This document shows positions 24,284 to 42,679 of a stretch of DNA of 64,000 nt, piece by piece; the first letter of the stretch is position 1, and each line of letters starts with the position of its first letter. Below the pieces are notes generated by a model that was not told the origin of the DNA, did not search any database, and worked only from the letters and a program-made list of their open reading frames with translations. Location: contig NZ_KV917368.1 in NCBI RefSeq assembly GCF_002019605.1, positions 1,276,997-1,340,996 on the forward strand, written 5' to 3'. This DNA comes from Alkalihalobacterium alkalinitrilicum (GTDB lineage Bacteria; Bacillota; Bacilli; Bacillales; Bacillaceae_F). The position numbers and the translations under genes are program-made.

Positions 24284-27200
24284 TTAAATATCGGCGAGCA
24301 CATTCAACTTTTTCAATTGCTTGCCGTCACTTTGAGGTACTTCTACTTCTTGAAATTTTGCATAGTTTACTTTTACGCCGTCATCTGGAGCAATCACGAC
24401 TCGTTTATTTGCGATATGTGCAATGACTTGGTCGTATTGCTGAATTTCAATGAGTTGCTTTTCGATGGTTTCTTTTCGCTTTTTCGCTTCACCTTTTTCA
24501 AGAACCGTTCCATCGCCTTCAAGAATGATATATAACTGTTCAGTTTCCGCTTCATATTTTCGTTGCAACTTATGTAAATAATCGGTACGTACACGAGCAA
24601 CAAGGCTTTCATCATAACGATGCATATATATAAGCGCCTTAAACCCTTGGTGTTTTCCACTATCGAATAACCAGTAAATTGGCCGTTTATTGTATGTTTT
24701 TATATGATCTTTGAAAAAATCTTTTTGAAAATAACGACGAAGTGCTTGTCTTGTTGACTCGGTTGCTTTTCTATTTATTGCACCAGTAATAAACTCAAGA
24801 TTTTCTTCTAGTTTTTCTTCACCAAATGTGGCAACAAGAAATTCAACAAAACGAGTGACAATGTCGTCATCAAAATATATTTCATCAGTCAATGGAATAA
24901 CGTTAGATTCGGTTGGATTAAAACGTTTATACCGTTCAGGATCGAACTCTCCACCCGCACAGACTAACCCGTTTTCATCTAGTGAATACCGACCAAACAT
25001 GCACCCGACCGCATAGGAGATAAACGACTTAATATCGCGCTCATAGTTTGCTTTGGAAAGTGTAATGTCTTCATCTAGAGCATGAGGTGTTACGTCACCA
25101 TTTAGTTGATAAAGATCAATAAATAATTCATTAATCTTTTGCTCGTTTTCTTTCATCTTAGTAAATTGTTGCTTGGTATAGTAGGACCAAGCATCAAATG
25201 CATCCTCTATCGTGTCACAGATACCCTTATGTTCAAGGAACGGATGTTCTTTGAATTCCCAAGTCTTCTCAAACGAATTCCAATCGTTTTTACTAATTTC
25301 GATACATTCCTGTACAAGATTAGAAATAGTAGATTCGTCAGTTGAAATAACTGGAATGGATTTAACATGGCCAACTTCATAATTAACAGTGGGGCTTAAA
25401 AAGCTTAAAACAGTTTTTGCCACATTACTATTCATTAATCCTAAAATAAATAAAGGATCTTCTTCTTGAAAAAAGATGGAACAACCTGCGACATCAAACG
25501 GTGTACCAATATCGTTATACCGCATGGAAAACCCGCCAATTGTTACTTTTGACCATGTTAAACAATCTTGAAAATAAAAACTTCTCGAAGGCAAATGGTT
25601 CCCAACTGTTGCCAATTTATCATAGTGATCGTTGTCAAATTTTATAACATTTTCGATATTTCCAAACCATTTTCTATAACTACCACCTTTATTATATGGA
25701 GCATATCTCAAACCGCTATTTAAAAAACTTTCAGTATTCTTATAGTGAAGACCAATTTCACGGAAATCCACTTCATACCAAAATCTTAAAAAGAAGTCGT
25801 TATTTCCTGTAGCTAACCCTTGTCGCGGCGAAGATACTTGTCCAAGCGGGGTTCCTTTTTCATAGGCAAAAATAAAACCGTTCGTCATATTATAAGCGAT
25901 TGGACTGTTTGGAATAATAGAAAAGTTCTTTTGTTCGTTCACGTATGTTCCGACACGGTTAAGAAACTTTTCTCGTTTCACTTCTAGTGATTCAACTGAG
26001 CTTTTCTTTTCGAATAATCGTTGATAGGTTGCTTCATAACCGTCGATAATGCTTTTCTGAAGAACAAATGCTGTCGTACCAAAGTCTGACCCAAAAATGC
26101 CTCTCCCAAAATGAAGCAAGTTAACAATTGTAACTTCTTTTAGTAACATCTTTCTTAGTTCTAGATAAGAAGATAAGTACATCCAGGTTGGAATATTAAT
26201 TAATGAAACAAACCCATTTTTTTTGGATAAAGTATAACAAACTTCCATGAATACTGTGCTCATATCATCTTTTGTCATTGGGTAGTTCGTTTTAATATAA
26301 TTTAATAATGTTTTATTAATTCCAGACCTTCCCATATACGGCGGGTTTGTAATCGCAATATCATATTTTTGATTTAATATTTTTGCCTGTTTCAATAATA
26401 CGGGTAGCTTATCCAATAAAACATCAAGGTATTGTGCTGTAAATAAATTAGAAGGATCACTTGATTGCAACTCATATAGACGTTGTTCTATGGCTTCTGT
26501 TTGAATATCATTAGCAATTAAAATTGAGCCATATTCTTTTGCGTCCTTGAAAAGAGCGAAAACATATTCGATGTCCTCTCGAAGGTGATCATTATCTTCT
26601 ATCATTAGGTCAATCGCTTCAGGTGGAATATCGTTACTTTCTTGTATTGATATAAGGTTGACTCTTACAGGCTCACTGAAAAAACGGCGATGATAACTTC
26701 GTGCCTTCATCATAATCGCAAAATAAGCTAATTGCGCCGCTCGGTCGTCAATATCTATGCCGTAAAGGTTCTTTTCTATAATAAGCTTCGGAATTTCACG
26801 AGGTGAATAACCAGCTTTCGTATAAATTTGATAAAGAACATCAAAAGCGTACACTAAAATGTGACCTGAACCCATACAAGGATCAATGATTGTAATCATT
26901 TCTGGATTTAACCTTGCGTCTACCAACTGAGTAAGTTCATGTTGAACTTCAGAATTTTGTTGCGCATCTTCGATATAATAGATCCACCCCTCTTTAAGTT
27001 CGTCCCCAGGGTGAGAATTCAACCAAAATCTCCCTAAGGAATTTTCAACCATGTATTGAACAATCCATTTAGGTGTAAAGAGTTGAGTTGCAGCTGGAAT
27101 ATTTTCTTTCGTTATTTTTTTATTTTTCTTTAGCCCTGCGAAAACTTCATCTTTTTTTTCGGAAATATAAAATTGATATAACCAGCCAATGATCTCGACT

Positions 27201-27808
27201 TGTTCTTTCCAATCCTCTTCTGGAATGGATGTGACAAGAAGGTGAATAACCGAACCTTCTTGTAGCAAATTTAATGGCAATAGTAATTCTGTATAATCAT
27301 TAATTCTCTCAAACATAACAGGTAAGATTGAATGTAGGGCATTACATTGCTTAATAAGTAAATACTTATATAAATCCTCGGTTTCATTTGTATCAAGAAG
27401 TTGGTATATCAATTCATGGTCTAATTCTAAATCCAGTTCTAATGCGTCTGTTAGGATATCTGGTTCTTGTTTTCCGTCATGCTCGGAAGTCAGCACCCTA
27501 ACTCCTGTTGGTAAATAATCATTTACTTCCATGAAACGTAGTGCAATTAAACGGTTGAACCACGTATAAGCAACTTCCTCAATTACGTGATCGAATCCTT
27601 GATGGTTAATTTTGGTTATTAATTCTTCCCGTTGCTTCAGTTCAAACGTTTTGAAGATGCGCTGGTTCACTCGAAATCCACCTTCAAATAGTTCAGGCTC
27701 TTTTATTTCATTTTTGGCAATACCTAATTCATACGCTTTTTGTTTTATGTCTTCTATTAACTGCATTCTTGCTTGAACTGCAAATTTACGAATAGCTACT
27801 TTATTCAT
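24284..27808 (-). CDS. pglX: BREX adenine-N6 methyltransferase PglX, paralogue 3
   Basis: A 1174-residue PglX. SAM motif DPCMGSGHILVYAFDVLY lies near residue 308, YGIDIDDRAAQLAYFAIMMK near 350, and the catalytic NPPYMG near 488, so the enzyme should be active. The central part (about 590-850) differs from the two paralogues and is the expected target-recognition region. The N-terminal 580 residues and the C-terminal 300 (DDIVTRFVEFLVATFGEE; RPIYWLFDSGKHQGFKALIY) are closely shared. It methylates host DNA so that BREX spares it. GGGGGA precedes ATG 27808. It is the last gene, where type 1 BREX usually has brxL. Confidence 0.93.
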   Translation of the reverse strand: MNKVAIRKFAVQARMQLIEDIKQKAYELGIAKNEIKEPELFEGGFRVNQRIFKTFELKQREELITKINHQGFDHVIEEVAYTWFNRLIALRFMEVNDYLPTGVRVLTSEHDGKQEPDILTDALELDLELDHELIYQLLDTNETEDLYKYLLIKQCNALHSILPVMFERINDYTELLLPLNLLQEGSVIHLLVTSIPEEDWKEQVEIIGWLYQFYISEKKDEVFAGLKKNKKITKENIPAATQLFTPKWIVQYMVENSLGRFWLNSHPGDELKEGWIYYIEDAQQNSEVQHELTQLVDARLNPEMITIIDPCMGSGHILVYAFDVLYQIYTKAGYSPREIPKLIIEKNLYGIDIDDRAAQLAYFAIMMKARSYHRRFFSEPVRVNLISIQESNDIPPEAIDLMIEDNDHLREDIEYVFALFKDAKEYGSILIANDIQTEAIEQRLYELQSSDPSNLFTAQYLDVLLDKLPVLLKQAKILNQKYDIAITNPPYMGRSGINKTLLNYIKTNYPMTKDDMSTVFMEVCYTLSKKNGFVSLINIPTWMYLSSYLELRKMLLKEVTIVNLLHFGRGIFGSDFGTTAFVLQKSIIDGYEATYQRLFEKKSSVESLEVKREKFLNRVGTYVNEQKNFSIIPNSPIAYNMTNGFIFAYEKGTPLGQVSSPRQGLATGNNDFFLRFWYEVDFREIGLHYKNTESFLNSGLRYAPYNKGGSYRKWFGNIENVIKFDNDHYDKLATVGNHLPSRSFYFQDCLTWSKVTIGGFSMRYNDIGTPFDVAGCSIFFQEEDPLFILGLMNSNVAKTVLSFLSPTVNYEVGHVKSIPVISTDESTISNLVQECIEISKNDWNSFEKTWEFKEHPFLEHKGICDTIEDAFDAWSYYTKQQFTKMKENEQKINELFIDLYQLNGDVTPHALDEDITLSKANYERDIKSFISYAVGCMFGRYSLDENGLVCAGGEFDPERYKRFNPTESNVIPLTDEIYFDDDIVTRFVEFLVATFGEEKLEENLEFITGAINRKATESTRQALRRYFQKDFFKDHIKTYNKRPIYWLFDSGKHQGFKALIYMHRYDESLVARVRTDYLHKLQRKYEAETEQLYIILEGDGTVLEKGEAKKRKETIEKQLIEIQQYDQVIAHIANKRVVIAPDDGVKVNYAKFQEVEVPQSDGKQLKKLNVLADI

Positions 27809-27829
27809 CGTTCCCCCTATTTCTTACGA

Positions 27830-27902
27830 GAAATGAGCGGGAGAACTGCGACACGGATAATACTGCCTCTTTACCCTGTTCCAATTCAAAACCACTCATT
27901 TC
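27830..27902 (-). promoter_or_regulatory. intra-operon hairpin between pglZ and pglX3
   Basis: GAAATGAG (27830-27837) pairs with CTCATTTC (27895-27902) across a 57-base loop in the 140-base gap. It is not followed by a T-run, so a processing or attenuation element is more likely than a terminator. Confidence 0.35.
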
Positions 27903-27948
27903 ACAGATTTATTTAACATGTTCAGCCGTTTTTGTTTGCTCCATTCAA

Positions 27949-30486
27949 TTAATCACTTGTCGCTAAATCAATGAGAAACGGGATTTTGTCATAAACCGTT
28001 TTCTCGTTTTCATCCTCTAAAATAAGATAATAGGTCTTGGTTTTATCATACTTTAAATTTTTTAAAACGAATTTTTCTTTATACGTACGATCTTGCGGTG
28101 TTTCTGATGTACTATCCGCAATTATCGTATTTTCATTTGAAATTCGCAAGCCTTCTTCGTCAGCGATATAAGAACTCAAACGTATAGGTAGCCGTTTTGT
28201 TTCGACTTTTTCGGATTGAAAAAACTCCAAATAAGTAATCATGCTTGTTATTTTTCTTGAGATATTCGTTAATTGTACAGTCACTTTCTTTACTGCATTT
28301 TTATCAGATGCACTTCGATCCGTTTTGTATTTAATAACAGGGATGACAATTTCTTGGAGCATTGATCCACCATGAATGAAATTCGCACCTGTTCCTTTTC
28401 GGGCAAATCTCATCGTTCCTCTAGGTACTGTAGTATAGAGTTCACTATCAGCTCCTAATAAGTAATTTAGGGAAATAGTCAATACATCTTCACGGTGCTC
28501 GGGTGAATCCGTAACGGTAAATCTCCTTTTTTCAATTTCATTGTCTGTCAAGGTAGGGCTAGTCTTATCGTAAGCTTCAATCGAACTTTGTTGATAAACA
28601 AAACCATGATCAGCAGTTACATAAATATTCGTTGCACTTACATGATTTACTAAGTCATGTATCAATTTTGAAAGTTCGTCGATGGCGTCTTTTACTGCAA
28701 AAAACACATCATGTTCGGTTGCGGCATGGTCTCCTCTAGCATCAATCGTGTTGTGATAAATATAAATGACTTTTTGACCTTTCATTAAATCGCGTAGCTT
28801 TCTTTTCATATTTTTTATATCTGAATAGTTTACTGCTATGGAATCATTTACTTTCTTTTGTAATATCGTTTGGCGGTTAATGATACCGTTTGTCGAGCTT
28901 CCATCGACTTTTACTTGATCAGCACGATATTCAATGGAATGATGCGGTAACAAACTTGCCATTCCTAATGAAGTATAGGAAGGCACGACACCTTGTATGG
29001 CGTCTATTTCAGTCGATGCTTTTTTTGTGCTATTAAGTAGTTCTACGAGTTCATGCGCAGCTTCGTACCGAAACGCATCTGAATTGATGACAAATACCTT
29101 TTCATCTCGATTAACATGGGGTTGAATGAAATCGTTATAAAAATTATGTTGTTGTTTTATACCTACAATTGGCCAATGAGAGCTTAATTCTTTTTGAACA
29201 GCATTGGACCAATAAACGGACAACTCTTCTAAGTAAGCATTTACATATGTATTTTCTATTAACTCTTTTACTTCTGACAAATCATCTTTTAATTGAGCTT
29301 GGTCAAATGCAAAATGAAATTTACGGTATGCTTGATCAATTAAATAATAGTTGCTCAAATAGTATTCAAAAAGTTGCAATGCATTATTTTCGCGCAACTT
29401 GTCTTTACATTTTTCCATATGTTCTAGAAAGGTAATTGCCCAGTTTAATGCTTCATACTCATGTTGATAATATGGAAACCAGTGTAATTTTCTTCGGGTT
29501 TTTATAATTCGTTTGTAATGATCATAATCTTGAACCATTTCATTGATATAGTTGGAAAGAGATGTAATAAAATATTTATCAAAACAAGGAAATGTGTCAC
29601 TTTCTAAATACTGCTCACTCTTCCATTCTGTCATATGATGTTGCACATTTAATTGTTCTTCTATTAGTTTTGCCCATTGGTTATAAAAGTCAACATCTTT
29701 CGTATGATGCATAAATTGGTTGATGAAAATAATGCTGTTCATTTTTACACTTGTAACGTAGGGTTGCCAACTTCGTGGCAGATCCGCTTGGAAAGTTTCC
29801 TTTAAATGGGAAAGACACATGGTGATGAACAATTGTTGTAACGATTTTTGATCTCCCGTATATCCATAGTAAAATTCTACAAGAGACCAAAACGTTTCTG
29901 GATCTCCAAACTTTTCAATATCGAGCCAAGCTGCATTCGTTTCATTTAGTTCGTCGATAAATAATTTCTTTACAATGTCATCAAAGGTCAAGAAATCGGT
30001 TTTACATAGAGAAGCTAGCACACATAAATGAACGCTTTCCTCAGTCCATTCTTCGACATCATAAGAAGCAAACTTTGAATATCGTTCTTTATTATTAAAG
30101 AACTTTGAGTAATGCTTAAATACATGGGCTAAGGACTCATCTGTAATTCCTAAGTCTCTCATAATGATACTCGTTTTATTTGCGGAAAATTCAATACTGT
30201 ATTTGAATATATCGATGAGCAAATTTTGTCTTGCAAGTGGCTTTGGATCATTTGAGTAAACTATAAAATGAGAATTAGGGTCTACCTTTTCAATCTCATA
30301 CTTAGCAAAGAAAGAATTGTGACTCGTCAAATGTAATATCCGAACTCCTTCGATTTTTAGTTCTGGTATATGTTCTGAAAAATCATATTCAGGGTCGTAC
30401 CAAAAAACAATGTGACGCTGCTTGCCATCCTTAAGTTCACTTGAGAATATATCGACTAAAGATTGTTTAATTTGTTCTAAGTTCAT
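27949..30486 (-). CDS. pglZ: BREX phosphatase-fold protein PglZ
   Basis: The 845-residue core BREX protein of the alkaline-phosphatase superfamily (PglZ type A), which works with PglX in modifying and restricting DNA. Metal-site motifs are visible: VFVINSDAFRYEAAHEL (about residue 460), YHNTIDARGDHAATEHD (about 580) and IYVTADHGFVYQ (about 630). The N-terminus (RHIVFWYDPEYDFSE) matches type 1 PglZ. GAGGAAG before ATG 30486 decides the start; the open frame runs to 30516. It sits between pglX2 and pglX3, an unusual place. Confidence 0.94.
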   Translation of the reverse strand: MNLEQIKQSLVDIFSSELKDGKQRHIVFWYDPEYDFSEHIPELKIEGVRILHLTSHNSFFAKYEIEKVDPNSHFIVYSNDPKPLARQNLLIDIFKYSIEFSANKTSIIMRDLGITDESLAHVFKHYSKFFNNKERYSKFASYDVEEWTEESVHLCVLASLCKTDFLTFDDIVKKLFIDELNETNAAWLDIEKFGDPETFWSLVEFYYGYTGDQKSLQQLFITMCLSHLKETFQADLPRSWQPYVTSVKMNSIIFINQFMHHTKDVDFYNQWAKLIEEQLNVQHHMTEWKSEQYLESDTFPCFDKYFITSLSNYINEMVQDYDHYKRIIKTRRKLHWFPYYQHEYEALNWAITFLEHMEKCKDKLRENNALQLFEYYLSNYYLIDQAYRKFHFAFDQAQLKDDLSEVKELIENTYVNAYLEELSVYWSNAVQKELSSHWPIVGIKQQHNFYNDFIQPHVNRDEKVFVINSDAFRYEAAHELVELLNSTKKASTEIDAIQGVVPSYTSLGMASLLPHHSIEYRADQVKVDGSSTNGIINRQTILQKKVNDSIAVNYSDIKNMKRKLRDLMKGQKVIYIYHNTIDARGDHAATEHDVFFAVKDAIDELSKLIHDLVNHVSATNIYVTADHGFVYQQSSIEAYDKTSPTLTDNEIEKRRFTVTDSPEHREDVLTISLNYLLGADSELYTTVPRGTMRFARKGTGANFIHGGSMLQEIVIPVIKYKTDRSASDKNAVKKVTVQLTNISRKITSMITYLEFFQSEKVETKRLPIRLSSYIADEEGLRISNENTIIADSTSETPQDRTYKEKFVLKNLKYDKTKTYYLILEDENEKTVYDKIPFLIDLATSD

Positions 30487-30504
30487 AGATCTTCCTCTTT
30501 TTTT

Positions 30505-30548: not shown

Positions 30549-30565
30549 ATATTTGTATTGCTGTG

Positions 30566-33500
30566 TTATAGTTTGATATTTGCTAATATGTTCATCTTTT
30601 TTGTCAGTTGGCCTTCTCCGTGAATGACGTCAATTCCTTGGAATTTTGCATAATTTGACTTAATACCATGATCTAAGTTCAGTTGTATTCGTTTATTTGC
30701 AACGTGAGCAATGGCCTGATCATATTGCTGGCATTCTATGATCTGCTTCTGTATCGTTTCTTTTCTTTTTTTCGCTTCTGTATATTCTCGAGTGGATACA
30801 TCCGATTCTATAATAGTATCCAGTCTTTCCAATTCCGTTTCGTATTTTCGTTGAATCAAATGTAAATACTCTGTTCGGACACGAGCGACAAGCCCTTCAT
30901 CATATCGATGTAAATATACGAGAGCTTTAAAGCCATTTTGTTTGCCACTATCAAATAGCCAATAAATGGGCCGCTTTTTATACACTTGTACATGATCTTT
31001 AAAGAAGTCTTTTATAAAATATCTTCGGATCGCTTGTCTAGAAGATTCGGTTGATTTTTTATTTACTGCTTCCGCGATAAATTGTAAGTTTTCTTCGAGT
31101 TTGTCCCTACCGTATACGACTTTTACAAACTCTACAAATCGTGTCACGATATCATCATCAAAGTATTCCTCATCCGTAATTGGAATGACATTTTCAGCAT
31201 CTGTTGCATAAGTTTGATATCGATGACTTTCGAACGCATCACCTGCAAATACAAGTCCTTTTTCATCTAAAGAATATCGACCAAACATACAACCAACTGC
31301 ATACGAAATGAACGATCGCACGTCTTTTTCTACATTAGCCATGGTTAAAACAATATCTTTATCTTGTATTTCAGGGGTAACATGCTTTTCTAATCCGTAA
31401 ATTTGAATAAAGATCTCATTTAACTGCTCTTCATACATTTTTAAACGAGAAAACTGATCGTTCGTGAGTGATTTCCAACGATCAAAAGTTTCTTGGAGTG
31501 TGCTGGCTTTACATTTATCATATAAAAAAGGGTGAAGAGAAAAATCCCATGATGTTTCGTGAAGATCCCAGTCTTGTTTTGAAATTTCAATACATTTTGA
31601 AGTCAACTCATTAATGATTAAATGCTCCTCTTTACTCGGCAATAAAATAGGTAATGATTTAATAGTGCCAACTTCAAAGTTAATCGTTGTACTTATGGCA
31701 CTCAATAATACTTCATTCACCTTTGAGTTAAGTAAGGATAAAATATAAAATTGATAAGGGTCCAAATCAAAAATCGAACATCCAGCAACATCAAAAATAA
31801 ATCCATTCCTAATATACCTGACTGAAAATTTTCCTGACGTTACTTTTGACCATGTAATGGATTCTTTAAAGAAGAAATCAATATTTTTTACAGTACGAGA
31901 GTAACTTTTATAAAGGGAGGCTGCATATTCTTTAATTTCACTTCCATTATCTTCCCAATTGACGACATACTCGGCATTTCCAAACCACTTTCTATATTTA
32001 CCACCTTTATTATAAGGAAACCATTTCTTTTGCGATAATGTAGCTTCATCATTACTTTTAAGATTAAATCCAATCTTTCCTTTTCGTACTTCAAACCAAT
32101 ATCGTAAATATTTATCATTATCGGATGTTGCCATGCCTTGGCGCGGACTAGCTATTTCACCTAAACTTTTTCCTTCTGTAAAAATCGTTCGAATCTTATT
32201 ATCGATCCAATATGTAATAGGCTGACTTGGTAATGAATGAAAGGTATCCATGGAAGCAACAAACTTTTTTTCCACATTAGGATAAATACTTGGTGCACCA
32301 TTTGCATCAAGATCTGATAAGCTCACTTTACAAAAAACACCTTTGTAGTTACGAAGCTTCTTCTTTCTCCATACTGTTGCCGCCGTTCCGAACGCGATTC
32401 CCATTACCATATTTTCTAAATGATTTAAAGTTACTATATGACTCTCTCTTTGCAAGTCATTACGAAACTGTTCAAAGGACGATAAAAACATCCAAGATTG
32501 CATTGTCACCATCGCATTGTAGCCATTTTCGTTTAAAAATTTCATTCCACGTGCAATGAATATTGAAAATAAATCATATTTTGCATTAGGATACAATTTC
32601 TCTAATGTTTTTGCCATTTTGGTGTTCATATTCCGAATACCCATATATGGTGGGTTAGTCACAACGACAGAGAATGTCCGACTCAACAATTTAGCTTGGT
32701 GGATGAACGTTGGGAACAGTTGCATTATTAACTCTCGATGATTTGCGGTAAACAAGTCTGACGAATTTTCATTTCTTATTTCATTTACACGTTGTTCGAA
32801 GGCAGAAAAATCCAGTTCTTCTATTTCTAATATAGACCCAAATTCTTCGGCGTCTTCAAACGTTTTTATAAAATATTCAACATCTTCTCTTTGAAGCCGC
32901 TTAGCAAGCTGGGGGTCGTTTGTATCGATAAAATAATCAATTGCTTCTTGCGGAATTCCGTTACTTTCTTGGATCGCACAAAGATTTACGTTAATGTGAC
33001 CCTGAAACAAACGACGATGATAACTTCTCGCTTTCATCATGATTGCAAAATAAGCTAATTGGGCAGCGCGATCATCAATGTCAATTCCATAGAGATTTTT
33101 TTCAAGAATGAGTTTGGGTATTTCTCTAGGAGAATACCCTGCTTTGGTATAAATGTCATAAAGAACATCAAATGCATAAACAAGTATATGGCCAGATCCC
33201 ATGCAAGGATCTATTACTGTAATTTCTTCTGGGTTTAATGGTTCCTTTGTTATTGAATTAATTTGTTGTTGAATATCATCGTCTTGTTTCACGCCATCCA
33301 AATAATACGTCCAGTTCCTTTTTAGCTCTTCATTAGGGTGGGACTCAAGCCATAATCTGCCAAGGGAGTTTTCAACCATATATTGAACGATCCACTTAGG
33401 CGTAAATAGTTGTGTTGCTGCAGGTATATTTTCTTTCGTTACTTTCTCATTTTTCTTTAACCGTGCAAAAACATCATCTTTTTTCTCTGAAATATAAAAT

Positions 33501-34135
33501 TGGTACAACCAACCGATAATTTCAACCTGTTCTTTCCAATCGCCTTCAGGAATGCTTGTAATAAGAAGGTGGATCACAGAATTTTCTTGTAACAAATTCA
33601 TTGGTAATAAAATTTCCGTATAATCATTAATCTCCTCAAACATAATCGGTAAAATCGTATGTAAAGCATTGCATTGTTTAATCAACAAATACTTAAATAA
33701 ACCTTCTGTATCATTAGAATCTTGAAAGCTATAAATCGTTTCTCGGTCGAGACCTAAGTCTAGATCTAGCGCTGCTGATAATATATCGGGTTCAGCTTGA
33801 CCTTCATGTTCCGAGGAAAGTACTCTTACGCCTGTCGGCAAATAATCATTGACTTCCATAAAACGTAATGCGATCAGCCGATTGAACCAAGTAAAGGCAA
33901 CTTCTTCAAGCACTTGTTCGAACCCTTTTTCTGCAATTTTTCCAACAAGTTCTTGACGTTGCTTCAATTCGGTAGGCTGGAAGATCCGCTGGTTAATTCG
34001 GAATCCTCCTTCAAAGACCTCTGGATCTTTGATTTCCCTATTGGTTATTCCTAATTCATACGCTTTTTGTTCAATATCACTGATTAGCTGTAACCTTGCT
34101 TTAACTGCAAACTGTCGAATTGCCGATTTATTCAT
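30566..34135 (-). CDS. pglX: BREX adenine-N6 methyltransferase PglX, paralogue 2
   Basis: 1189 residues with intact SAM motif DPCMGSGHILVYAFDVLY (near 308) and catalytic NPPYMG (near 495). The recognition region (about 590-860) is distinct from those of paralogues 1 and 3, though PRQGMATSDNDKYLRYWFEV shows it is closer to paralogue 3 (PRQGLATGNNDFFLRFWYEV). The C-terminal DDIVTRFVEFVKVVYGRD and RPIYWLFDSGKQNGFKALVY are shared. GGGGGGCAAA before ATG 34135 favours this start over ATG 34147. It follows pglX1 by 76 bases. Confidence 0.93.
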   Translation of the reverse strand: MNKSAIRQFAVKARLQLISDIEQKAYELGITNREIKDPEVFEGGFRINQRIFQPTELKQRQELVGKIAEKGFEQVLEEVAFTWFNRLIALRFMEVNDYLPTGVRVLSSEHEGQAEPDILSAALDLDLGLDRETIYSFQDSNDTEGLFKYLLIKQCNALHTILPIMFEEINDYTEILLPMNLLQENSVIHLLITSIPEGDWKEQVEIIGWLYQFYISEKKDDVFARLKKNEKVTKENIPAATQLFTPKWIVQYMVENSLGRLWLESHPNEELKRNWTYYLDGVKQDDDIQQQINSITKEPLNPEEITVIDPCMGSGHILVYAFDVLYDIYTKAGYSPREIPKLILEKNLYGIDIDDRAAQLAYFAIMMKARSYHRRLFQGHINVNLCAIQESNGIPQEAIDYFIDTNDPQLAKRLQREDVEYFIKTFEDAEEFGSILEIEELDFSAFEQRVNEIRNENSSDLFTANHRELIMQLFPTFIHQAKLLSRTFSVVVTNPPYMGIRNMNTKMAKTLEKLYPNAKYDLFSIFIARGMKFLNENGYNAMVTMQSWMFLSSFEQFRNDLQRESHIVTLNHLENMVMGIAFGTAATVWRKKKLRNYKGVFCKVSLSDLDANGAPSIYPNVEKKFVASMDTFHSLPSQPITYWIDNKIRTIFTEGKSLGEIASPRQGMATSDNDKYLRYWFEVRKGKIGFNLKSNDEATLSQKKWFPYNKGGKYRKWFGNAEYVVNWEDNGSEIKEYAASLYKSYSRTVKNIDFFFKESITWSKVTSGKFSVRYIRNGFIFDVAGCSIFDLDPYQFYILSLLNSKVNEVLLSAISTTINFEVGTIKSLPILLPSKEEHLIINELTSKCIEISKQDWDLHETSWDFSLHPFLYDKCKASTLQETFDRWKSLTNDQFSRLKMYEEQLNEIFIQIYGLEKHVTPEIQDKDIVLTMANVEKDVRSFISYAVGCMFGRYSLDEKGLVFAGDAFESHRYQTYATDAENVIPITDEEYFDDDIVTRFVEFVKVVYGRDKLEENLQFIAEAVNKKSTESSRQAIRRYFIKDFFKDHVQVYKKRPIYWLFDSGKQNGFKALVYLHRYDEGLVARVRTEYLHLIQRKYETELERLDTIIESDVSTREYTEAKKRKETIQKQIIECQQYDQAIAHVANKRIQLNLDHGIKSNYAKFQGIDVIHGEGQLTKKMNILANIKL

Positions 34136-34211
34136 TTTGCCCCCCATTAACCACCTTCAACTAAGAGGTTTCACTTTACTTCTATTAACATGATCTTTTA
34201 TTTTGTCCACT

Positions 34212-37200
34212 CTACAACTTAATGTCAGTTAAAACGTTCATTTTCTGCGTTGCCTTGCCTGCTACTTCGGCAACATCAACATCTTGGAACTTCGAATAGT
34301 TCGCCTTAATACCTGCAGTTACATCGAGCATCAATCGTTTGTTGGCGATATGAGCAATTATTTTGTCGTAATGATAGGTTTCGATGAGTTGCTTGTGAAT
34401 TGTATCTTTTTTTCGATTGGCGACAGTTTTATCTCGAGCGGAAGCATCACCTTCAACAACCGCTTCCAATCGTTCCATTTCCGCCTCATACTTCCGTTGT
34501 AAAAGGTGGAGGTAATCCGTTCGCACGCGAGCGACAAGTCCTTCGTCATACCTGTGCATATAAATGAGTGCCTTGAATCCATTCTGTTTCCCACTATCAA
34601 ACAACCAATAAACAGGACGTTTTTTATAAGTTTGAACATGGTCTTTATAAAAATCTTTTAAAAAGTACCGCCTGATTGCCTCCCTTGAGGATTCTGTTGT
34701 TTTTTTATTGAGTGCTTCCGCAATAAATTCAAGGTTTTCTTCAAAGCCTGTCTCGCCAAACGTCACCTTTATAAAATCGACAAATCTAGTTACGATATCG
34801 TCATCAAAATACTCGTCATCTGTAATCGGTATAATGTTCTGTACATCCGCAGCAAACGTTTCGTAGCGACTTAAGTCAAAATCCCCCCCAGCAAAAAACA
34901 CTAGGCCATCTTCATCTAAAGAATACCGACCAAACATACAACCAACAGCATAGGAAATATACGACTTTACATCACGTTCGCGATCCGCTATACGAATAGC
35001 AATTTCATCTTCAGGAACTTCTGGTTTGAACTCATCTTCTAATTGGTATAAACGTATAAATAGCTCGTTTAATTGTTCTTCATTTGCTTTCAATTGATTA
35101 AATTTTGCTTCTGTATCAATACTCCAGCTCATGAAAGATTCTTCAATGCTAGATGCTTTGTAGTTCAAGAAAGGGTGTTTTTTAAAGTCTAGGGACGTTT
35201 CAAACGAATCCCAGTCTTCTTTCGTCAAATTAATGTTTTCTTGAACGAGTGCAATGATTTGCTGTTTACTTTCTTCAAGCGGAGTGACTAACGGCACACG
35301 AACAACATCATTCAGCTTTACGTGGAGTCCTGAATTCAATAGCTTGAAAACTTCATCGGAAATAACAGAATTCAACAAACCTAAAAGAAAAAAACGATTC
35401 TCTGCGTTACTGATCAGTAATGCAGGTCCTGCCATATCAAAAAGAGTATCATTCGAAAGAATTCTTGCGTTAAATGTACGGGTTGTTAAGTCGGTATACG
35501 TTATACCCTCTTTAAACCAAAATTCTTTGTTCAATAGATTGGATGTTGAATTTTCGCGGTAAAACGTTTTTGCTTCATCCGACCAATCAATAACCGTTTC
35601 TAAATTTCCGTACCACTTTCTTAATCGCCCGCCTTTAGCATATAAAAACCAGCGGTCATTTATTTCATTTAGATTGACTTCCCAGACAAATCTTAAATAT
35701 CGTTCATTGTTAGCGGTTTTATTCCCTGACCCTACATTGTCAATTATCGTTTCAATTGAAGGGTTAGATTGAAAATTAACGAGCATCTTGTCACTTGTCC
35801 AATAAGCAAAAGGGTACTTTGGAATTCCTTTAAAACTTTCAACTTTTTTAATGAACCAGTTATTAGTATTGAGCATTTGTTGTACCTTTTCTTGTGTACC
35901 GAACCCAACGAGATTGATAAAGCAACTATTAAAGTCCGGAATCGGTGAATTCCGTGTAATATAAGATGTCGTTTGAACGACTTCCCCACCAATTTCTTCA
36001 AAGGCACGAGCACCGAGATGGACCATTGAAACAATAGTTTGAGTCTCCATGATAAATTTTCGGACTTTTTCGTAACTACTTAAAAACATCCAAGAGTGTT
36101 GATTGATCGTAGCTAAATAACTAGTTGATTTCCCGAAATAATGCATTTGTTCCATAAAGACCGTAAATAAATCATTGGAAAATTCTTTATAATTCTTTCC
36201 AATATATCCTTTTAGCTTAGGATTCATATTCCCTGTACCCATATACGGTGGGTTGGTTACAACGACATCATATTTCATTGTGAGTAGCTTTACTTGGTCT
36301 ACTAGTGGTGGAAGCCACTTAAGTAACTCATCACGATATTGAGTTTGAAATAAATCAATTGATTCACTCATTGTGATAGCTTCTAACCTTAAGGCAATTT
36401 CATCAATTTGAATGTCTTTTATTTTTATGATGGAACCGTAGTCTTTTCCATCTTGGAAGCTTTCAATTAGAAGATTCATACTTTTTTGAAGGGATTCATC
36501 AATGTCTTCACCGTTAGCTCGTATGAAATAATTTATAGCTTCACGTGAAATTCTGTTACTTTCTTGTATTGAGCACAAATTTACTTTTATTTGCTCTCTA
36601 AATAAGCGTCTGTTGTAGCTTCTTGCTTTCATCATTACTCCAAAATACGCTAATTGAGCAGCGCGATCATCAATGTCCATACCGTATAAATTGTTTTCTA
36701 AGATCAATTTTGGAATTTCTCTTGGTGAATATCCCTCTTTTGCATAGATGTCATATAAAACATCAAAGGCATAAACAAGAATATGGCCAGATCCCATACA
36801 AGGATCTAATACTTTAATATCTTCAGGCATTAAATTTTTATTTATGAGGTGAGTTAATTCTTGTTCAACCTCGATGTTTTGATCTACTTCTTTCACATAA
36901 TAAGTCCAGTTGTTTTTTAACTCTTCGTTAGGATGAGTTTCGAGCCATAACCTGCCAACGGAATTTTCAACCATATATTGAACGATCCATTTGGGGGTGA
37001 ATAGCTGTGTCGCTGCTGGAATGTTTTCTTTTGTAACTTTTTGCTTTTTCTTTAAACCAGCAAATACTTCATCTTTTTTTTCCGAGATGTAAAATTGGTA
37101 CAACCACCCGATAATTTCAACTTGTTCTTTCCAATCTTCTTCTGGAATTGATGTTACAAGCAGTCGAATGATGGAGTGATCTTGCAACAAATTTTGCGGT

Positions 37201-37730
37201 AGTAAAACTTCTGTATAATCATCAATGGGTTCAAACATGATGGGTAGTATCGTATGTAATGCATTGCATTGTTTGATTAACAAATATTTAAATAGACCTT
37301 CTCTGTCATTTGCATCTTGTAGACGATAAATGGTATCTAGATCTACATTCATATCAACGTCTAAAGCTGCGGCTAAAATATCAGGTTCCGTTTTTTCAAC
37401 TTCTTCTGATGAAAGGATACGCACCCCTGTTGGTAAATAATCATTCACTTCCATAAAACGAAGGGCAATGAATCGGTTGAACCATGTATAGGCAACTTCT
37501 TCAATAATCTGTTCAAGTCCTTTTTCTTCCACCTTATCTATTAACTTTTGACGTTGCTCTAATTCTGATATGTGAAACACTCTTTGGTTAATGCGAAATC
37601 CACCTTCAAATACTTCTGGCTCTTTATTTCCATGTTTTGTAATGCCTAGTTCATATGCTTTTTGTTCAATATCAGAAATCAGTTGTATTCTCGCTTTTAC
37701 AGCAAATTTTCGGATTGTGGATTTATTCAT
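34212..37730 (-). CDS. pglX: BREX adenine-N6 methyltransferase PglX, paralogue 1
   Basis: 1172 residues with DPCMGSGHILVYAFDVLY near 308, YGMDIDDRAAQLAYFGVMMK near 350 and catalytic NPPYMG near 493. Its central region (about 590-850, with VGSGNKTANNERYLRFVWEV and RLRKWYGNLETVIDW) is the most different of the three and should read another DNA site. AAGGAGAGTCAT before ATG 37730 sets the start; the open frame extends to 37790 inside the dispersed repeat, which is not coding. First methyltransferase after brxC. Confidence 0.93.
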   Translation of the reverse strand: MNKSTIRKFAVKARIQLISDIEQKAYELGITKHGNKEPEVFEGGFRINQRVFHISELEQRQKLIDKVEEKGLEQIIEEVAYTWFNRFIALRFMEVNDYLPTGVRILSSEEVEKTEPDILAAALDVDMNVDLDTIYRLQDANDREGLFKYLLIKQCNALHTILPIMFEPIDDYTEVLLPQNLLQDHSIIRLLVTSIPEEDWKEQVEIIGWLYQFYISEKKDEVFAGLKKKQKVTKENIPAATQLFTPKWIVQYMVENSVGRLWLETHPNEELKNNWTYYVKEVDQNIEVEQELTHLINKNLMPEDIKVLDPCMGSGHILVYAFDVLYDIYAKEGYSPREIPKLILENNLYGMDIDDRAAQLAYFGVMMKARSYNRRLFREQIKVNLCSIQESNRISREAINYFIRANGEDIDESLQKSMNLLIESFQDGKDYGSIIKIKDIQIDEIALRLEAITMSESIDLFQTQYRDELLKWLPPLVDQVKLLTMKYDVVVTNPPYMGTGNMNPKLKGYIGKNYKEFSNDLFTVFMEQMHYFGKSTSYLATINQHSWMFLSSYEKVRKFIMETQTIVSMVHLGARAFEEIGGEVVQTTSYITRNSPIPDFNSCFINLVGFGTQEKVQQMLNTNNWFIKKVESFKGIPKYPFAYWTSDKMLVNFQSNPSIETIIDNVGSGNKTANNERYLRFVWEVNLNEINDRWFLYAKGGRLRKWYGNLETVIDWSDEAKTFYRENSTSNLLNKEFWFKEGITYTDLTTRTFNARILSNDTLFDMAGPALLISNAENRFFLLGLLNSVISDEVFKLLNSGLHVKLNDVVRVPLVTPLEESKQQIIALVQENINLTKEDWDSFETSLDFKKHPFLNYKASSIEESFMSWSIDTEAKFNQLKANEEQLNELFIRLYQLEDEFKPEVPEDEIAIRIADRERDVKSYISYAVGCMFGRYSLDEDGLVFFAGGDFDLSRYETFAADVQNIIPITDDEYFDDDIVTRFVDFIKVTFGETGFEENLEFIAEALNKKTTESSREAIRRYFLKDFYKDHVQTYKKRPVYWLFDSGKQNGFKALIYMHRYDEGLVARVRTDYLHLLQRKYEAEMERLEAVVEGDASARDKTVANRKKDTIHKQLIETYHYDKIIAHIANKRLMLDVTAGIKANYSKFQDVDVAEVAGKATQKMNVLTDIKL

Positions 37731-37750
37731 ATGACTCTCCTTCTCATATA

Positions 37751-37853: not shown

Positions 37854-37866
37854 TTCAAACTAAGAT

Positions 37867-37890
37867 CCATGTGGGGACACGCCCACATGG
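37867..37890 (-). promoter_or_regulatory. perfect 9-bp hairpin after brxC
   Basis: CCATGTGGG pairs with CCCACATGG around a six-base loop, 17 bases beyond the brxC stop. No T-run follows on the minus strand, so it is more likely an mRNA 3'-end stabiliser or processing signal than a full terminator. Confidence 0.5.
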
Positions 37891-37907
37891 AAGGTGTGAA
37901 TATCTAT

Positions 37908-40900
37908 CTAAATTAAGCGAATAATGGTATCTTCTTTTAGCTCTTTGACGAGACGCTCCCGCAGTTGATCAAGTAAATTATCGATATCTTGTTCGTCCTC
38001 TACAGTTGTTGTACCACGAAGAACATTAGACATGCTAACATTAACCGTTTTTTTCACTTTATTGACGGTTTTTGCTCCTTCAGTAGTGGCTGTTTCCCCA
38101 GACGATGGTTTTCGAGTGATTGGCTGAATTTGTGCTCGTCGTTCCTCCTCATCGAGCGCATAAATTTCATTAAATGAACGTAGTTTTATTCGGTCACTTT
38201 CCTCTTTCATGGCGATCGCTTCGTAGAAGTTATTCACTCGTTCTAAACGAAGTTTTAAATCGTCAAACCTTTGTTTAATTTGAGGTAAAAGTTTGTCCTT
38301 AAACGATTTACTCGTAAGCTCTTGTAGTACTTTTTCATAGTCAATTTTTATGACTTCACGAACAGGTTCACATTCTTTTTCTAATAGTTCAGTGAACTTC
38401 TCTACAAACCCTTTAATCAAATTTGGTAATCGGTAAATATTTCCATATGGATTTGCTTGGAAAATAATCTTCTTCATCTCGACAATGGCTTTTGTGATTT
38501 CTTCATCAATAACATATGTTTGATTTTTCTCGAAGATTTCAATCTTTTCGATTGCATCGTCAAAAATCATTTGTTGTTCTTCAAAAAAGTGTTTAATATC
38601 TTTTCGATGATCAACGTAATCTAAAACGTCTTCTTTTAGTTGAAAAGCAGTTTTATACCATGTAAGTGTGTCGTTGATCGATATTAGTTCTTTAAATGTT
38701 TCTTCAGCTTGGAGTAAATGTTCTTTTCCTGGATAAGGTTTTTTCTCGTAACGATCGAGATACCTTTTGATGACCGTATCAAGCTCTTTTTCAAGCAAAG
38801 CATTAAACTGACTACGTAAACGGTCTTCATCTGCAGGTAATGCTGTCGTTGCCGTCAATTCTTTAGAAAGGTCTTTAATATTATTCAAATATTTTACAGG
38901 GGTCTTCTCCCGTTCTTTCACTAGTGTTCGTTCTACATACTCTCGTTTCGTCAAATAATTAATAAAGTCCTTATCTTGCAATTGTATTGATTGTTGGTTG
39001 ATTTGCAATTTTATATCTTGAGATTTAAATAGCTTAATGACACAAGCTACGCTATCGTATTCTAGCCAACCGTATGGAATATTTGAGAAGAATGTGATCA
39101 AAGACTTCATTGTTATTGGTATATTACGTTGACTGTTCCGTTTAATGTAAGCATGTACTTCTGTTAGTGCCAACCGATTTGGATCTTCTTCAATTAGCGA
39201 TAACTGTTCGTTTGAACTACTGACGAGTTCGTGCAAATCCTTTATGGAATCGGTATGCTCGGAAACTTGCTTAAGTTTATGATATAGAGATTCAATAAGG
39301 CTTTTGAAAGCTTCATTTAATCTTTCTTCTGGATGTTTAGATTTTACTTTTAAAGCTTGATTGTTTACATAAATATCAGCTTCTATTAATGCGTCTATTA
39401 AGAGTGTTTTTACTCGTTTCTTGCGTTCAGTCGATTCTCTTCTTTTTCTTAACTTAATTTCATCAATGGTTGAAGTTGTTGAGGTACCTCCAGCTTTTCT
39501 AAGGTATGCATCGATTTTTTTTGCTTGTTCCATTTCTTCAATAATAGCTGTATCAGATGGTAGCTTTATAATTAAATTATTCTCTCGAAGTGACATCGAT
39601 TTTAGTTCTGCCTCATTACTATCGTTCAGACCTTCAAAGTATGGAGTGATAACTTTTACGCCGAATTGATGTCCTTGTTGTCGTAAAGCGAGTTCATCAA
39701 TGTATGTGTTAAATGGAAAATGATATCGAGTTGAATATCGGAATTTCTTTTCATTATAAATATCTTCAAAAATCAAAATACCAATTTCTCGGATGGTTTC
39801 AGATGAATCGATATGAATACTATTAATTTCTCGATTCACATCTTGTTCATCATTTGTTAGAAAAATATATTCTTCGCCGTTTTTTAAAATTAATGTTTCA
39901 CGGATAAGTCTCTGCAATGAACTTTGAATAATTTTCGTTTGCTCTACTTTGTCTTCATCAATTTCATGAACGAGTAATGTAGCTAAATTTTCGATATTTG
40001 CTGGCATTTCCTTTACGTACTTAACTAAAAATAATAATTTTAAAACTTCGATATCTTTTTCATTTAATCGACTATTTTGCTTAGCTTGAATAATAACAGA
40101 TCGAACACTAGCATCTAGAAATGCTTCAATCGTTTCATAAAAAGCAGAAAACGGCACAAATGTACCTATTTCTTTGGAAGCATAGGCAATCGCCGATTCC
40201 TGAAAAGCACTTAATAGAGAACGTTCTCCTTCTGATAAACTTTTTCCAGCAGCCCCGTGAACTCGGACACCTGTGAAGACTTTTTGTAGCAACTGAAATT
40301 GGTAAGGAACGAATGGGTATACATCGATAAAATCTTCTTCATCCGCAAACGATTTCATCTCAGGCGTATCTTTGAACGTGATCAAATTATTAATTATTGA
40401 CCGTTTATTTGGATATAACAGTTGTAAAGTTTCTTTTGCTGTATCGTTTTTTTCTAAAATACGTTTACGAATTACTTCATCAACATTGGCGCTTGATAAA
40501 CTTAATCTTGTGTTAAATCGACCTTGAATTTTAGAAAAATCATCACCTTTTACTTTTGTAATTGAATCGATTTCTTGTTGACTCGTGACCATAACCCAAC
40601 ATTTTCCACCACAATAAATACCTAATTGTTCGACAACAGTTTGTAAATTCAGCATCAGATGCGTATCGTCTCCGATGTATTGTCCCATTTCATCAACGAG
40701 AAATAATACATGGTGGTTTTCATCTTTACTATCGATATATTCGTTAATTCTTTGAGCGAATTTTTCAATACTTAAGCTATAATTGTCCTCTGCTTTGTTG
40801 TACCAATTCCTTGCAGCTTTTTCACTCATTTTTGATGTTTCAGCTAGTGCTTCAACGATTGAATCTTCTTCATAATAAAAATCCTCACGTGAATCTTCCC

Positions 40901-41477
40901 AAGTAGAACCTGAAACCTTTTGAAAAGCTTCTTTAAATGAATTATAAACTCCCTCTTTAGCTAATTGTCGTTCTAAATCAGCTACCCAAGGGATTGAACC
41001 ACAAAAGCCTTGCATTTCGTTAAAAGCTTTGTTAAATACTCGTAAGATTGAGTCTTTATGTAATTTAGAGTCAGAATCAGACTTTGCATCTATATTAAAA
41101 AGAATAACATCGGTCGTAACGTTAGCCGCTTTTTTCATATTTTCTAAAATTGTTCGATCGTTAATTTTATCTTCAAAAAAACCAACAGCTCTTTTACCTT
41201 TTACTTCTTTATTTGCAAGAATGTAAGATAAAATTTTAAGGAAATGCGACTTACCTGAACCAAAGAAACCTGAAATCCACACTCCCATTTTATCAGTATG
41301 TGCGAGAACGCCTTTTTGATAAGATTCAAAAAAGTCATGAAAATGTTCGGTTAGTTCATTTGTGACTACGTATTCATCCAACTCTTGATAAATATTTGTT
41401 TCATCATCTTGACCAACTTTAATTACACCTTTTATATCACGATCAATTGGCTTTTGAAACATTTCTTTTATATTCAT
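37908..41477 (-). CDS. brxC: BREX ATPase BrxC
   Basis: A large AAA+-like P-loop protein of 1189 residues, the central ATPase of type 1 BREX. Walker A is GFFGSGKSHF (residues 70-79) and the Walker B-like strand is HHVLFLVDEMGQYIGDD (near 250). The N-terminus MNIKEMFQKPIDRDIKGVIK is typical of BrxC. The second half is helical and rich in charged coiled-coil stretches. GGGGGA before ATG 41477. It follows brxB by 18 bases. The last 60 residues contain a low-complexity T/V/K linker. Confidence 0.94.
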   Translation of the reverse strand: MNIKEMFQKPIDRDIKGVIKVGQDDETNIYQELDEYVVTNELTEHFHDFFESYQKGVLAHTDKMGVWISGFFGSGKSHFLKILSYILANKEVKGKRAVGFFEDKINDRTILENMKKAANVTTDVILFNIDAKSDSDSKLHKDSILRVFNKAFNEMQGFCGSIPWVADLERQLAKEGVYNSFKEAFQKVSGSTWEDSREDFYYEEDSIVEALAETSKMSEKAARNWYNKAEDNYSLSIEKFAQRINEYIDSKDENHHVLFLVDEMGQYIGDDTHLMLNLQTVVEQLGIYCGGKCWVMVTSQQEIDSITKVKGDDFSKIQGRFNTRLSLSSANVDEVIRKRILEKNDTAKETLQLLYPNKRSIINNLITFKDTPEMKSFADEEDFIDVYPFVPYQFQLLQKVFTGVRVHGAAGKSLSEGERSLLSAFQESAIAYASKEIGTFVPFSAFYETIEAFLDASVRSVIIQAKQNSRLNEKDIEVLKLLFLVKYVKEMPANIENLATLLVHEIDEDKVEQTKIIQSSLQRLIRETLILKNGEEYIFLTNDEQDVNREINSIHIDSSETIREIGILIFEDIYNEKKFRYSTRYHFPFNTYIDELALRQQGHQFGVKVITPYFEGLNDSNEAELKSMSLRENNLIIKLPSDTAIIEEMEQAKKIDAYLRKAGGTSTTSTIDEIKLRKRRESTERKKRVKTLLIDALIEADIYVNNQALKVKSKHPEERLNEAFKSLIESLYHKLKQVSEHTDSIKDLHELVSSSNEQLSLIEEDPNRLALTEVHAYIKRNSQRNIPITMKSLITFFSNIPYGWLEYDSVACVIKLFKSQDIKLQINQQSIQLQDKDFINYLTKREYVERTLVKEREKTPVKYLNNIKDLSKELTATTALPADEDRLRSQFNALLEKELDTVIKRYLDRYEKKPYPGKEHLLQAEETFKELISINDTLTWYKTAFQLKEDVLDYVDHRKDIKHFFEEQQMIFDDAIEKIEIFEKNQTYVIDEEITKAIVEMKKIIFQANPYGNIYRLPNLIKGFVEKFTELLEKECEPVREVIKIDYEKVLQELTSKSFKDKLLPQIKQRFDDLKLRLERVNNFYEAIAMKEESDRIKLRSFNEIYALDEEERRAQIQPITRKPSSGETATTEGAKTVNKVKKTVNVSMSNVLRGTTTVEDEQDIDNLLDQLRERLVKELKEDTIIRLI

Positions 41478-41495
41478 GGGAATCCCCCTGTATCC

Positions 41496-42077
41496 TTAGT
41501 TTTCTATTAATTGAAACGCACGATAATAGTTATCATCTTTAATTTCGTTAAACAAAACTAGCTCTAAACCGTCATAAGAACCTGGAAAAAACATGACAAC
41601 AGGAACGTGATCAATGACACCATGTAAATTATTGAGAATTGAATGTGAACGAATGACCGGATAGGCTTTGCCGATTCCCGTTAGAAATACAATATCATGT
41701 TCTTGCACTCGATCAGAAATGTACTGAACGACCATGTCATTATTTAATGTAAGCCGTAGCGCTTTTTTTGTAGCATTTATAACAAATTCACTTCCTTTTT
41801 TTGCTTCTAATGCAAAGTTTTTTTGCAAATATCCTTTTTCTGATAAAATTTCTAATATAACTTCATAAAGGTCAAACTCTCGGATGTGTATACCAGTGTT
41901 ATTATTATTGATCCGTTTTTTTATAAACGTAATATGCTCCCTAACTAGAAGTTCATATTTAGGGTTGTAGTCAAAAATATGAAATCCAATTTCATTTCCT
42001 AATCCTTTGTTTTGTAAAAAAGTAGGATCAGTGATTTTCGGAATAATCATGTCAAGTCGTTCGTGAATTGTCGGCAT
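41496..42077 (-). CDS. brxB: BREX protein BrxB (DUF1788)
   Basis: 193 residues of the DUF1788 family. The segments DIVFLTGIGKAYPVIRSHSI and VPVVMFFPGSYDGLELVLFN near the C-terminus are characteristic. It is a small core component needed in type 1 BREX, with unknown chemistry. Its ATG overlaps the brxA stop by one base (TAATG), which points to translational coupling. Confidence 0.92.
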   Translation of the reverse strand: MPTIHERLDMIIPKITDPTFLQNKGLGNEIGFHIFDYNPKYELLVREHITFIKKRINNNNTGIHIREFDLYEVILEILSEKGYLQKNFALEAKKGSEFVINATKKALRLTLNNDMVVQYISDRVQEHDIVFLTGIGKAYPVIRSHSILNNLHGVIDHVPVVMFFPGSYDGLELVLFNEIKDDNYYRAFQLIEN

Positions 42078-42679
42078 TACTTTACCCCCATCGCTTGTAA
42101 ATAAATCGTATCCCCTTTATTTTCGATATGACTTTTGATTTCTGGGTCAAGGATCGGAAGGAGGATTTCACGATCTCCTTTTTTATTTTTCAACAAACCT
42201 GCTTCAAATAGTATTCGAATATATACTTGTTGTAGTTTATAAAATGTATAATCTTTCCATTTCGCAATCACTTCACTTTGTTTCGCTTTCGTTTCAAAAA
42301 AGAGGTTAAAGTCTTTATCCATTAACACCATATCTCCAAACAGTACTTTGTCTTTAAACACTTCGTTCATAAATTCAAAAAATAAGCGGTCAGTTTTTAT
42401 AACCGTATACAAGGCAATAACTTTACTTGACTCGAGATCTGAATCGATCATCGCCTCCATTAAATAAGGATCTAATAAATGAATTCTTTGAATTACTGTT
42501 GCGGCAATTTCCTTTTTTCGGCTCTCTGAGTTTACTTGAAATAAATTTTCTTTTGTTGCTCGTTCTTTTAGCTCAACTTCGCTAATCCCACTTATATAAA
42601 GTGATACAGCCTTTTTTAAATATAAATACATATAATCTCTAGATTTAATTGTTGTACTATATTTTAATCCATTTACCAT
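42077..42679 (-). CDS. brxA: BREX protein BrxA (DUF1819)
   Basis: 200 residues of the DUF1819 (BrxA) family, a small helical DNA-binding protein that heads type 1 BREX operons. Recognisable are STTIKSRDYMYLYLKKAVSL at the start, KVIALYTVIKTDRLFFEFM in the middle and KWKDYTFYKLQQVYIRILFE further on. ATG 42679 has a moderate site (GAAGGA) upstream. First gene of the operon, 40 bases after the predicted -10 box. Confidence 0.92.
   Translation of the reverse strand: MVNGLKYSTTIKSRDYMYLYLKKAVSLYISGISEVELKERATKENLFQVNSESRKKEIAATVIQRIHLLDPYLMEAMIDSDLESSKVIALYTVIKTDRLFFEFMNEVFKDKVLFGDMVLMDKDFNLFFETKAKQSEVIAKWKDYTFYKLQQVYIRILFEAGLLKNKKGDREILLPILDPEIKSHIENKGDTIYLQAMGVK

Follow-up and report, generated by a model that had tools for sequence, protein, structure and literature searches.

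A type 1 BREX operon with three pglX genes and no brxL in Alkalihalobacterium alkalinitrilicum

Gene content of the operon

A bacteriophage exclusion (BREX) operon was analysed in a 64,000-nt stretch of the Alkalihalobacterium alkalinitrilicum genome (contig NZ_KV917368.1, positions 1,276,997 to 1,340,996), the whole of which is referred to as the window. The operon lies at window positions 24284-42679 on the minus strand and is of type 1, with the order brxA-brxB-brxC-pglX1-pglX2-pglZ-pglX3 and all open reading frames (ORFs) intact. Three full-length pglX genes are thus present, and brxL is absent. A first-pass annotation had placed the seven genes at these positions with intact frames, in agreement with PADLOC, Pfam and the ORF check. 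The features are listed below in the direction of transcription; the cut-off of NF033452 (PglX) is 500 bits.

42719-42747, minus strand: promoter-like site TTTACC-17-TAGAAT, 5' of brxA (consensus scan, weak alone)
42077-42679, minus strand: brxA, 200 aa (PF08849, 192 bits; PADLOC BrxA)
41496-42077, minus strand: brxB, 193 aa (PF08747, 151 bits; PADLOC BrxB)
37908-41477, minus strand: brxC, 1189 aa (NF033441, 1257 bits, cut-off 400; Walker A GFFGSGKS, Walker B LVDE)
37866-37891, minus strand: strong hairpin, possibly an attenuator, in the gap from brxC to pglX1 and lacking a good U-tract (-20 kcal/mol, z = -3.7)
34212-37730, minus strand: pglX1, 1172 aa, ORF to 37790 (NF033452, 1382 bits; orthologue of the pglX of genome G146)
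30566-34135, minus strand: pglX2, 1189 aa, ORF to 34147 (NF033452, 1453 bits; orthologue of the pglX of genome G089)
27949-30486, minus strand: pglZ of type A, 845 aa, ORF to 30516 (TIGR02687, 699 bits, cut-off 270)
24284-27808, minus strand: pglX3, 1174 aa, at the usual position of brxL (NF033452, 1411 bits; DPCMGSGH and NPPY)
24220-24284, minus strand: intrinsic terminator 3' of pglX3 (fold -30.1 kcal/mol, z = -6.7, followed by TTTTTT)

All seven genes were named by PADLOC and Pfam, BrxC through its Pfam domains. BrxA and BrxB gave no NCBIfam match, and BrxC, the three PglX and PglZ scored far above the NCBIfam cut-offs. By coordinates and by PF08849 and PF08747, brxA and brxB lie upstream of brxC in the same operon. 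The starts given for pglX1 (37730), pglX2 (34135) and pglZ (30486) were chosen by eye as the likely true starts, slightly inside the ORFs. DPCMGSGH and NPPY motifs were found in each of the three PglX, and the Walker motifs of BrxC are intact. The pglX2 product, the only PglX queried, matched the solved BrxX/PglX structures 9ewz and 8c45 along its length. In PglZ, residues T515, H715, D480, D592, D596, D636 and H637 (numbering of the 855-aa ORF), which are of the type found at metal sites, were invariant among 52 aligned PglZ. Judged from motif and spacing and not from alignment to the E. fergusonii protein, T515 and H715 would in our reading correspond to T538 and H741, the residues reported as tested in E. 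fergusonii PglZ (PMC12205998). By every feature tested except BrxL the operon is type 1 BREX. DISARM was rejected: the best PADLOC PglX model scored 1474-1540 bits against 977-1068 bits for DrmMI, and the partner genes are BREX genes.

Operon and window have the same GC content, 34.7%. Sequences resembling ribosome-binding sites were seen by eye ahead of the three pglX genes. The terminator directly after pglX3 claimed by the first-pass annotation was borne out by its fold and T-run, although a simple consensus scan did not list it. The promoter consensus scan returned 62 sites against a shuffle mean of 77.8, fewer than in the shuffles, and was not used as evidence alone. In the Salmonella BREX, the position after brxC is reported to be occupied by an internal terminator (PMC12707154). 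Elsewhere on the minus strand of the window are five Bacillaceae-1 RNAs (RF01690; 1790-1852, 18636-18699, 19668-19734, 49372-49434 and 62456-62522).

The three PglX and their target-recognition domains

Comparisons were made with an order sample of 397 genomes (handles beginning with G; the window strain is G000) and with named loci (handles beginning with L). Three PglX above cut-off were found in the genome of the window strain, along with two short matches far below cut-off. At least one full-length pglX was present at 53 loci, six of which had more than one copy; three full-length copies were found in the window only. Two full-length copies were found at G084, G139, G372, G099 and L124 (Clostridiaceae BL-3). 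The last of these (9387-23463) has the order B-C-X-Z-X, independently of the window; there was no BrxL in its genome, and no brxA was seen beside the locus. Duplications of pglX are mentioned in print (PMC11842806); no description of three per locus was found in the literature searched, from which most subscription papers were outside. In a plasmid collection, 273 places with a PglX match at E < 1e-60 were held by 265 records, so that several pglX in one record are rare there. The best BrxC in the collection was 42% identical, and a near-DNA search gave only matches of 76-79 bases.

A PglX tree was calculated from 60 proteins longer than 1100 aa; shorter ones (split, truncated or cut-off genes, for example at L107, L125, L130 and L133) were excluded. 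This tree and the BrxC tree described below are quick trees with SH-like approximate likelihood ratio (SH-aLRT) support only, and the BrxC tree carried a warning of long branches, including that of G089. The five PglX of the genus, namely X1-X3 of the window and those of the congeners G089 and G146, formed one clade (support 100). Within it X1 paired with the G146 protein (99) and X2 with the G089 protein (97), and the place of X3 was open. Because X1 and X2 pair with different congeners, they separated before the species split. The three PglX arose by duplication within this lineage.

The E. coli structure paper supplied the limits of the target-recognition domain (TRD), which were transferred by eye through the HMMER alignment to 9ewz. 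Identity among the three window paralogues is 70-76% for the N-terminal and 59-61% for the C-terminal domain, and 28, 30 and 42% for the TRD; the median TRD identity over all 1770 PglX pairs is 37%. Between orthologues the TRD is the best-conserved domain (77% for X1 and G146, 84% for X2 and G089). The same contrast was seen at the five loci with two full-length copies, where TRD identity was 34-41% and N-terminal identity 78-100%. In the L124 pair the N-terminal domains are 98% identical, the C-terminal domains 93% and the TRDs 35%. The G099 pair, which is split between two clusters and has broken copies nearby, gives 100, 74 and 41% in the same order. Since the TRDs of the window paralogues are as different as those of random PglX pairs, and those of orthologues are strongly conserved, the three proteins likely have three separate specificities, which selection would maintain. 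The multi-specificity suggested by the first-pass annotation is well supported by this TRD comparison, which is the strongest argument for separate specificities.

BrxL in the window strain and in relatives

The genome of the window strain (5,523,573 bases, 2 contigs, 100% complete) gave no match to PF13337 or TIGR02688. In the window, neither family searches nor tblastn with 17 BrxL queries (best E = 0.34) found a BrxL-like gene or a remnant of one. The earlier claim that the 64 kb lack such a gene was therefore upheld, and its suggestion of a BrxL borrowed from elsewhere in the genome is excluded at the sensitivity of the two families. No replacement helicase was found in the operon. A genome-wide search with the G274 helicase described below (628 residues used as query) returned only partial matches in other proteins, the best 43% over 125 aa; this search did not extend to genome-wide use of the BrxD and BrxHI models.

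In the order sample TIGR02687 (PglZ of type A) matched 33 genomes, 32 of them above cut-off. BrxL was present in 15 of these 32 and absent from 17, among which 11 have a helicase after pglZ and six (G000, G007, G096, G099, G224 and G311) have neither at the locus. The helicase-like protein, found in G274 and 10 other genomes, is 934-1067 aa long and of SNF2 type by eye; in G129 one short ORF separates its gene from pglZ. On one branch of the BrxC tree, 11 of 12 loci have it where BrxL would otherwise stand. At G099, broken pglX copies and transposase-like sequence lie beside pglZ. The labels helicase, MATE, PAS kinase and Cas for neighbouring genes come from inspection by eye or from a blastp comparison with a relative.

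A search for related loci by PglZ alone gave no match, and a scan by BrxC alignment yielded 33 named loci, four of which (L110, L111, L118 and L122) lie on contigs already present in the order sample. The whole-genome BrxL search left out five of the 33, two of them cut off (L108, L121) and three with BrxL visible in the locus (L132-L134). BrxL was found in 14 of the 28 genomes reached in this way and was absent from the other 14, of which 10 have B-C-X-Z at the locus, two are cut off and two have a lone brxC. The lone genes, full length, are in two Clostridium genomes (L128, 10001-13531; L136, 9995-13525), in a shared syntenic position next to a gene judged FeoB-like by eye; no other BREX gene was seen in either locus.

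On the BrxC tree of 62 rows, four of which are on cut-off contigs and were left unlabelled, presence and absence of BrxL required at least eight changes over the 58 labelled rows. Five changes remained over 41 rows when the helicase loci, lone brxC genes, brxC-pglX pairs, G224 and G099 were removed. A four-state count gave nine; such counts cannot separate gain from loss. In G096 the decayed remains of a BrxL C-terminus (74% identity over 135 aa) adjoin pglZ, and the sister locus L131 has a full BrxL. The simplest reading of these sequences is that brxL was lost repeatedly among relatives.

No common BrxL substitute was found among ten proteins encoded in or beside BREX loci of BrxL-less relatives, a set that does not comprise all such genes. 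They include Fic, Schlafen AlbA, HipA-part, Uma2, sigma-54 activator and MFS transporter proteins, and three of the ten had no Pfam match. A Fic-domain gene lies between pglX and pglZ at L062 (14815-15399) in the BrxL-less G007. In many Bacillales relatives (L110-L114, L117, L118, L122, L123 and L062) a Cas9-like gene, often with a Cas1-like gene, adjoins BREX upstream or downstream; these genes were named by eye in G096 and L062 and by blastp to G096 elsewhere.

According to a published figure, 76% of type 1 systems have BrxL (PMC12839542). Because of this figure, and because near BrxC relatives occur with or without it, BrxL is not a dependable marker of type 1 BREX and was treated as non-defining; if it is counted as defining, the window operon is type-1-like. 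A set of one gene each, as assumed in the first-pass annotation, is accordingly too strict, given also the printed mention of pglX duplications. That annotation had further put the third PglX in the place of BrxL. As a matter of position this holds. PglX3 as a functional replacement of BrxL was rejected, since extra pglX and BrxL loss do not co-occur in other loci: a second full-length pglX is also found with BrxL (G084) or with a helicase (G139, G372), and many loci with a single pglX lack BrxL.

Interpretation and comparison with known systems

At the site of the window's BREX operon the congeners G089 and G146 have only brxC and one pglX (L146, 8476-15751, and L147, 6348-13490, respectively), and each genome contains one PglX above cut-off. 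Neither genome gave a match to type A PglZ or to BrxB. No brxA was found in the 19.5 kb fetched of each, brxA not having been searched genome-wide, and the absence of BrxL rests on the locus and not on a genome search. BrxC was above cut-off in 34 of the 397 genomes, among which these two alone have no PglZ above cut-off. The site is the same by its flanks: on one side both congeners have the transporter (MATE by eye, 87-88% identical) and the histidine kinase, and on the other G146 has the same PAS-type kinase (68%), where G089 differs. A stretch like the window's promoter-like site was seen 5' of brxC (MAFFT, by eye), near the start in G146 and about 200 bp before it in G089. Behind the G089 pglX is a scrap of a PglX C-terminus (19 aa, 68% to X3, E 1e-4 in a four-sequence set), so that at least the G089 locus seems to have been reduced from a form with more pglX. 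In G146 a short match to the PglX C-terminus with a stop lies on another contig (E 1.8e-5, below cut-off).

Both brxC-pglX pairs are open and keep their motifs. Their ratio of nonsynonymous to synonymous substitution rates (dN/dS) is 0.06-0.12 and only indicative, since dS is saturated (2.4-2.6 for brxC, 2.0-2.9 for pglX). Three-point dN of brxC, calculated by hand, is about 0.20 for G089, 0.09 for G146 and 0.06 for the window lineage; for the neighbouring transporter gene it is 0.03, 0.03 and 0.06. The faster change of BrxC in the congeners fits relaxed constraint after loss of partners, and fits a changed function as well. The reduction to brxC-pglX is an unexpected finding. When expressed together, BrxC and PglX are described as toxic to E. 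coli (PMC12205998), which makes retention of the pair more curious.

The reading we consider probable is that the window holds a working, BrxL-less type 1 BREX operon for phage exclusion, with several specificities and a specificity subunit expanded to three PglX. The operon would have lost brxL, and the subunit would have expanded into three paralogues with diverged TRDs, which would share one BrxB-BrxC-PglZ core together with BrxA. Each PglX, all three presumably being expressed, would dock in turn on this core and direct N6-adenine methylation at its own asymmetric host site. Unmethylated phage sites would trigger replication arrest, the core acting without BrxL and PglZ contributing as a nuclease within it. 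In published accounts B, C, X and Z form a complex needed for both activities (PMC13326643, PMC11842806), and these four are required, and BrxL is dispensable, for methylation (PMC13326643). PglZ is described as a nuclease, whose loss lowers the defence of the E. fergusonii BREX by about 3 logs (PMC12205998). The proposal of the first-pass annotation that the system may work without BrxL gains support from the many BrxL-less relatives and from the reported dispensability of brxL for Salmonella BREX defence (PMC11341690). This BrxL-less operon, probably with three specificities, is a new form of type 1 BREX and not a new kind of system.

Several points weigh against this reading. The same source gives brxL as essential for defence in the E. 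coli and Acinetobacter BREX (PMC11341690), which makes a modification-only state, also raised by the first-pass annotation, possible. BREX systems lacking BrxL are said to encode a BrxH helicase instead (PMC11842806). At the level of the locus the window and several relatives do not fit this BrxL-or-helicase rule; either there are exceptions to it or the window lacks something. Nuclease-dead PglZ leaves considerable defence in E. fergusonii (PMC12205998), which makes PglZ only a candidate effector. Similar TRDs occur on otherwise distant PglX (G047 and L119, for example, share 69% in the TRD and 43% in the N-terminal domain), which suggests that TRDs may move by recombination; distinct TRDs are no proof of distinct motifs. 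The BREX locus is reduced in the genus, as the congeners show. The histidine kinase gene adjoining brxA (window 42908-44080, plus strand) is broken, with 11 in-frame stops in the aligned stretch, and the copies of the congeners are open.

The main rival, possible but on balance unlikely, is that the operon only modifies or is decaying: with BrxL gone, methylation at up to three motifs would continue without restriction, in an epigenetic or anti-restriction role, on the way to the brxC-pglX state of the congeners. The gene losses in G089 and G146 and the PglX scrap in the former speak for such a course. In the window, however, all seven genes are full length and motifs are intact where checked (BrxC, PglX, PglZ), the brxC branch is the shortest of the three in dN, and relatives commonly have loci in which B, C, X and Z are full length and BrxL is absent. 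A further, doubtful proposal is that the BREX locus of the genus is resolving into exchangeable brxC-pglX modules behind the ancestral operon promoter. The pair would then be a functional minimal system without brxB and pglZ, partners at present regarded as essential, either a methylation module or a toxic BrxC-PglX effector otherwise checked, and the window operon would be its multi-specificity parent form.

It is improbable that the PglX are used sequentially, one being made at a time through phase variation or pglX recombination and the other two serving as a reservoir of specificities. In the literature pglX is described as commonly phase-variable (PMC11341690), and the copies of relatives such as L124 and G099 are near-identical at the N-terminus and not in the TRD. 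The three window genes, in contrast, are complete and collinear before one terminator and have their own ribosome-binding-site-like sequences. No two of them were found to share an exact DNA match of more than 26 bp, a poor basis for recombination, and no recombinase gene lies within the operon. The same short match and the 5.5-Mb contig make a repeat-driven join of separate pglX loci in the assembly, which the first-pass annotation had named as a hazard, unlikely. With one continuous operon, X1 and X2 orthologues at the corresponding site of the congeners and all five PglX in one clade, such an artefact can practically be dismissed.

As a natural operon with all core genes and neither BrxL nor a replacement helicase beside them, it permits a direct test of the BREX effector in a Gram-positive setting, set against the printed claim of a helicase in BrxL-less systems (PMC11842806). 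A single core serving three PglX would illustrate how BREX extends the range of sites it recognises, since nothing more than a new TRD is required for a new specificity. With brxC-pglX alone, the congeners offer a way to test what BREX methylation minimally requires: genetic work in print finds B, C, X and Z all necessary, yet two species retain an open brxC-pglX stretch of about 7 kb and have neither B nor Z.

Compared with known systems, the operon is closest to the type 1 BREX of Bacillus cereus, E. coli HS, Acinetobacter and Salmonella D23580, with the same brxA, brxB, brxC, pglX and type A pglZ in the same order. It differs from these in lacking brxL genome-wide and in having three pglX instead of one. 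The Salmonella BREX with brxL deleted is the laboratory counterpart, in which A-B-C-X-Z is reported still to defend, against some phages better (PMC11341690); in the window the absence of BrxL is natural and there are three PglX. The two-pglX loci likewise combine conserved ends with divergent TRDs, and L124 also lacks BrxL. They differ from the window in having two full-length copies, and among them G084 keeps BrxL, G139 and G372 carry the helicase, and G099 has its copies in separate clusters. The 11 helicase loci of the order sample share the A-B-C-X-Z core without BrxL, but unlike the window have the helicase right after pglZ. A helicase replacing BrxL is in print for types 5 and 6; a type 5/6 or helicase variant was rejected for the window, whose operon contains none and whose genome gave only partial matches to the G274 query. 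Type I restriction-modification systems with several HsdS subunits likewise have one core with exchangeable specificity. This last comparison concerns only the way of working, PglX being methyltransferase and specificity subunit in one.

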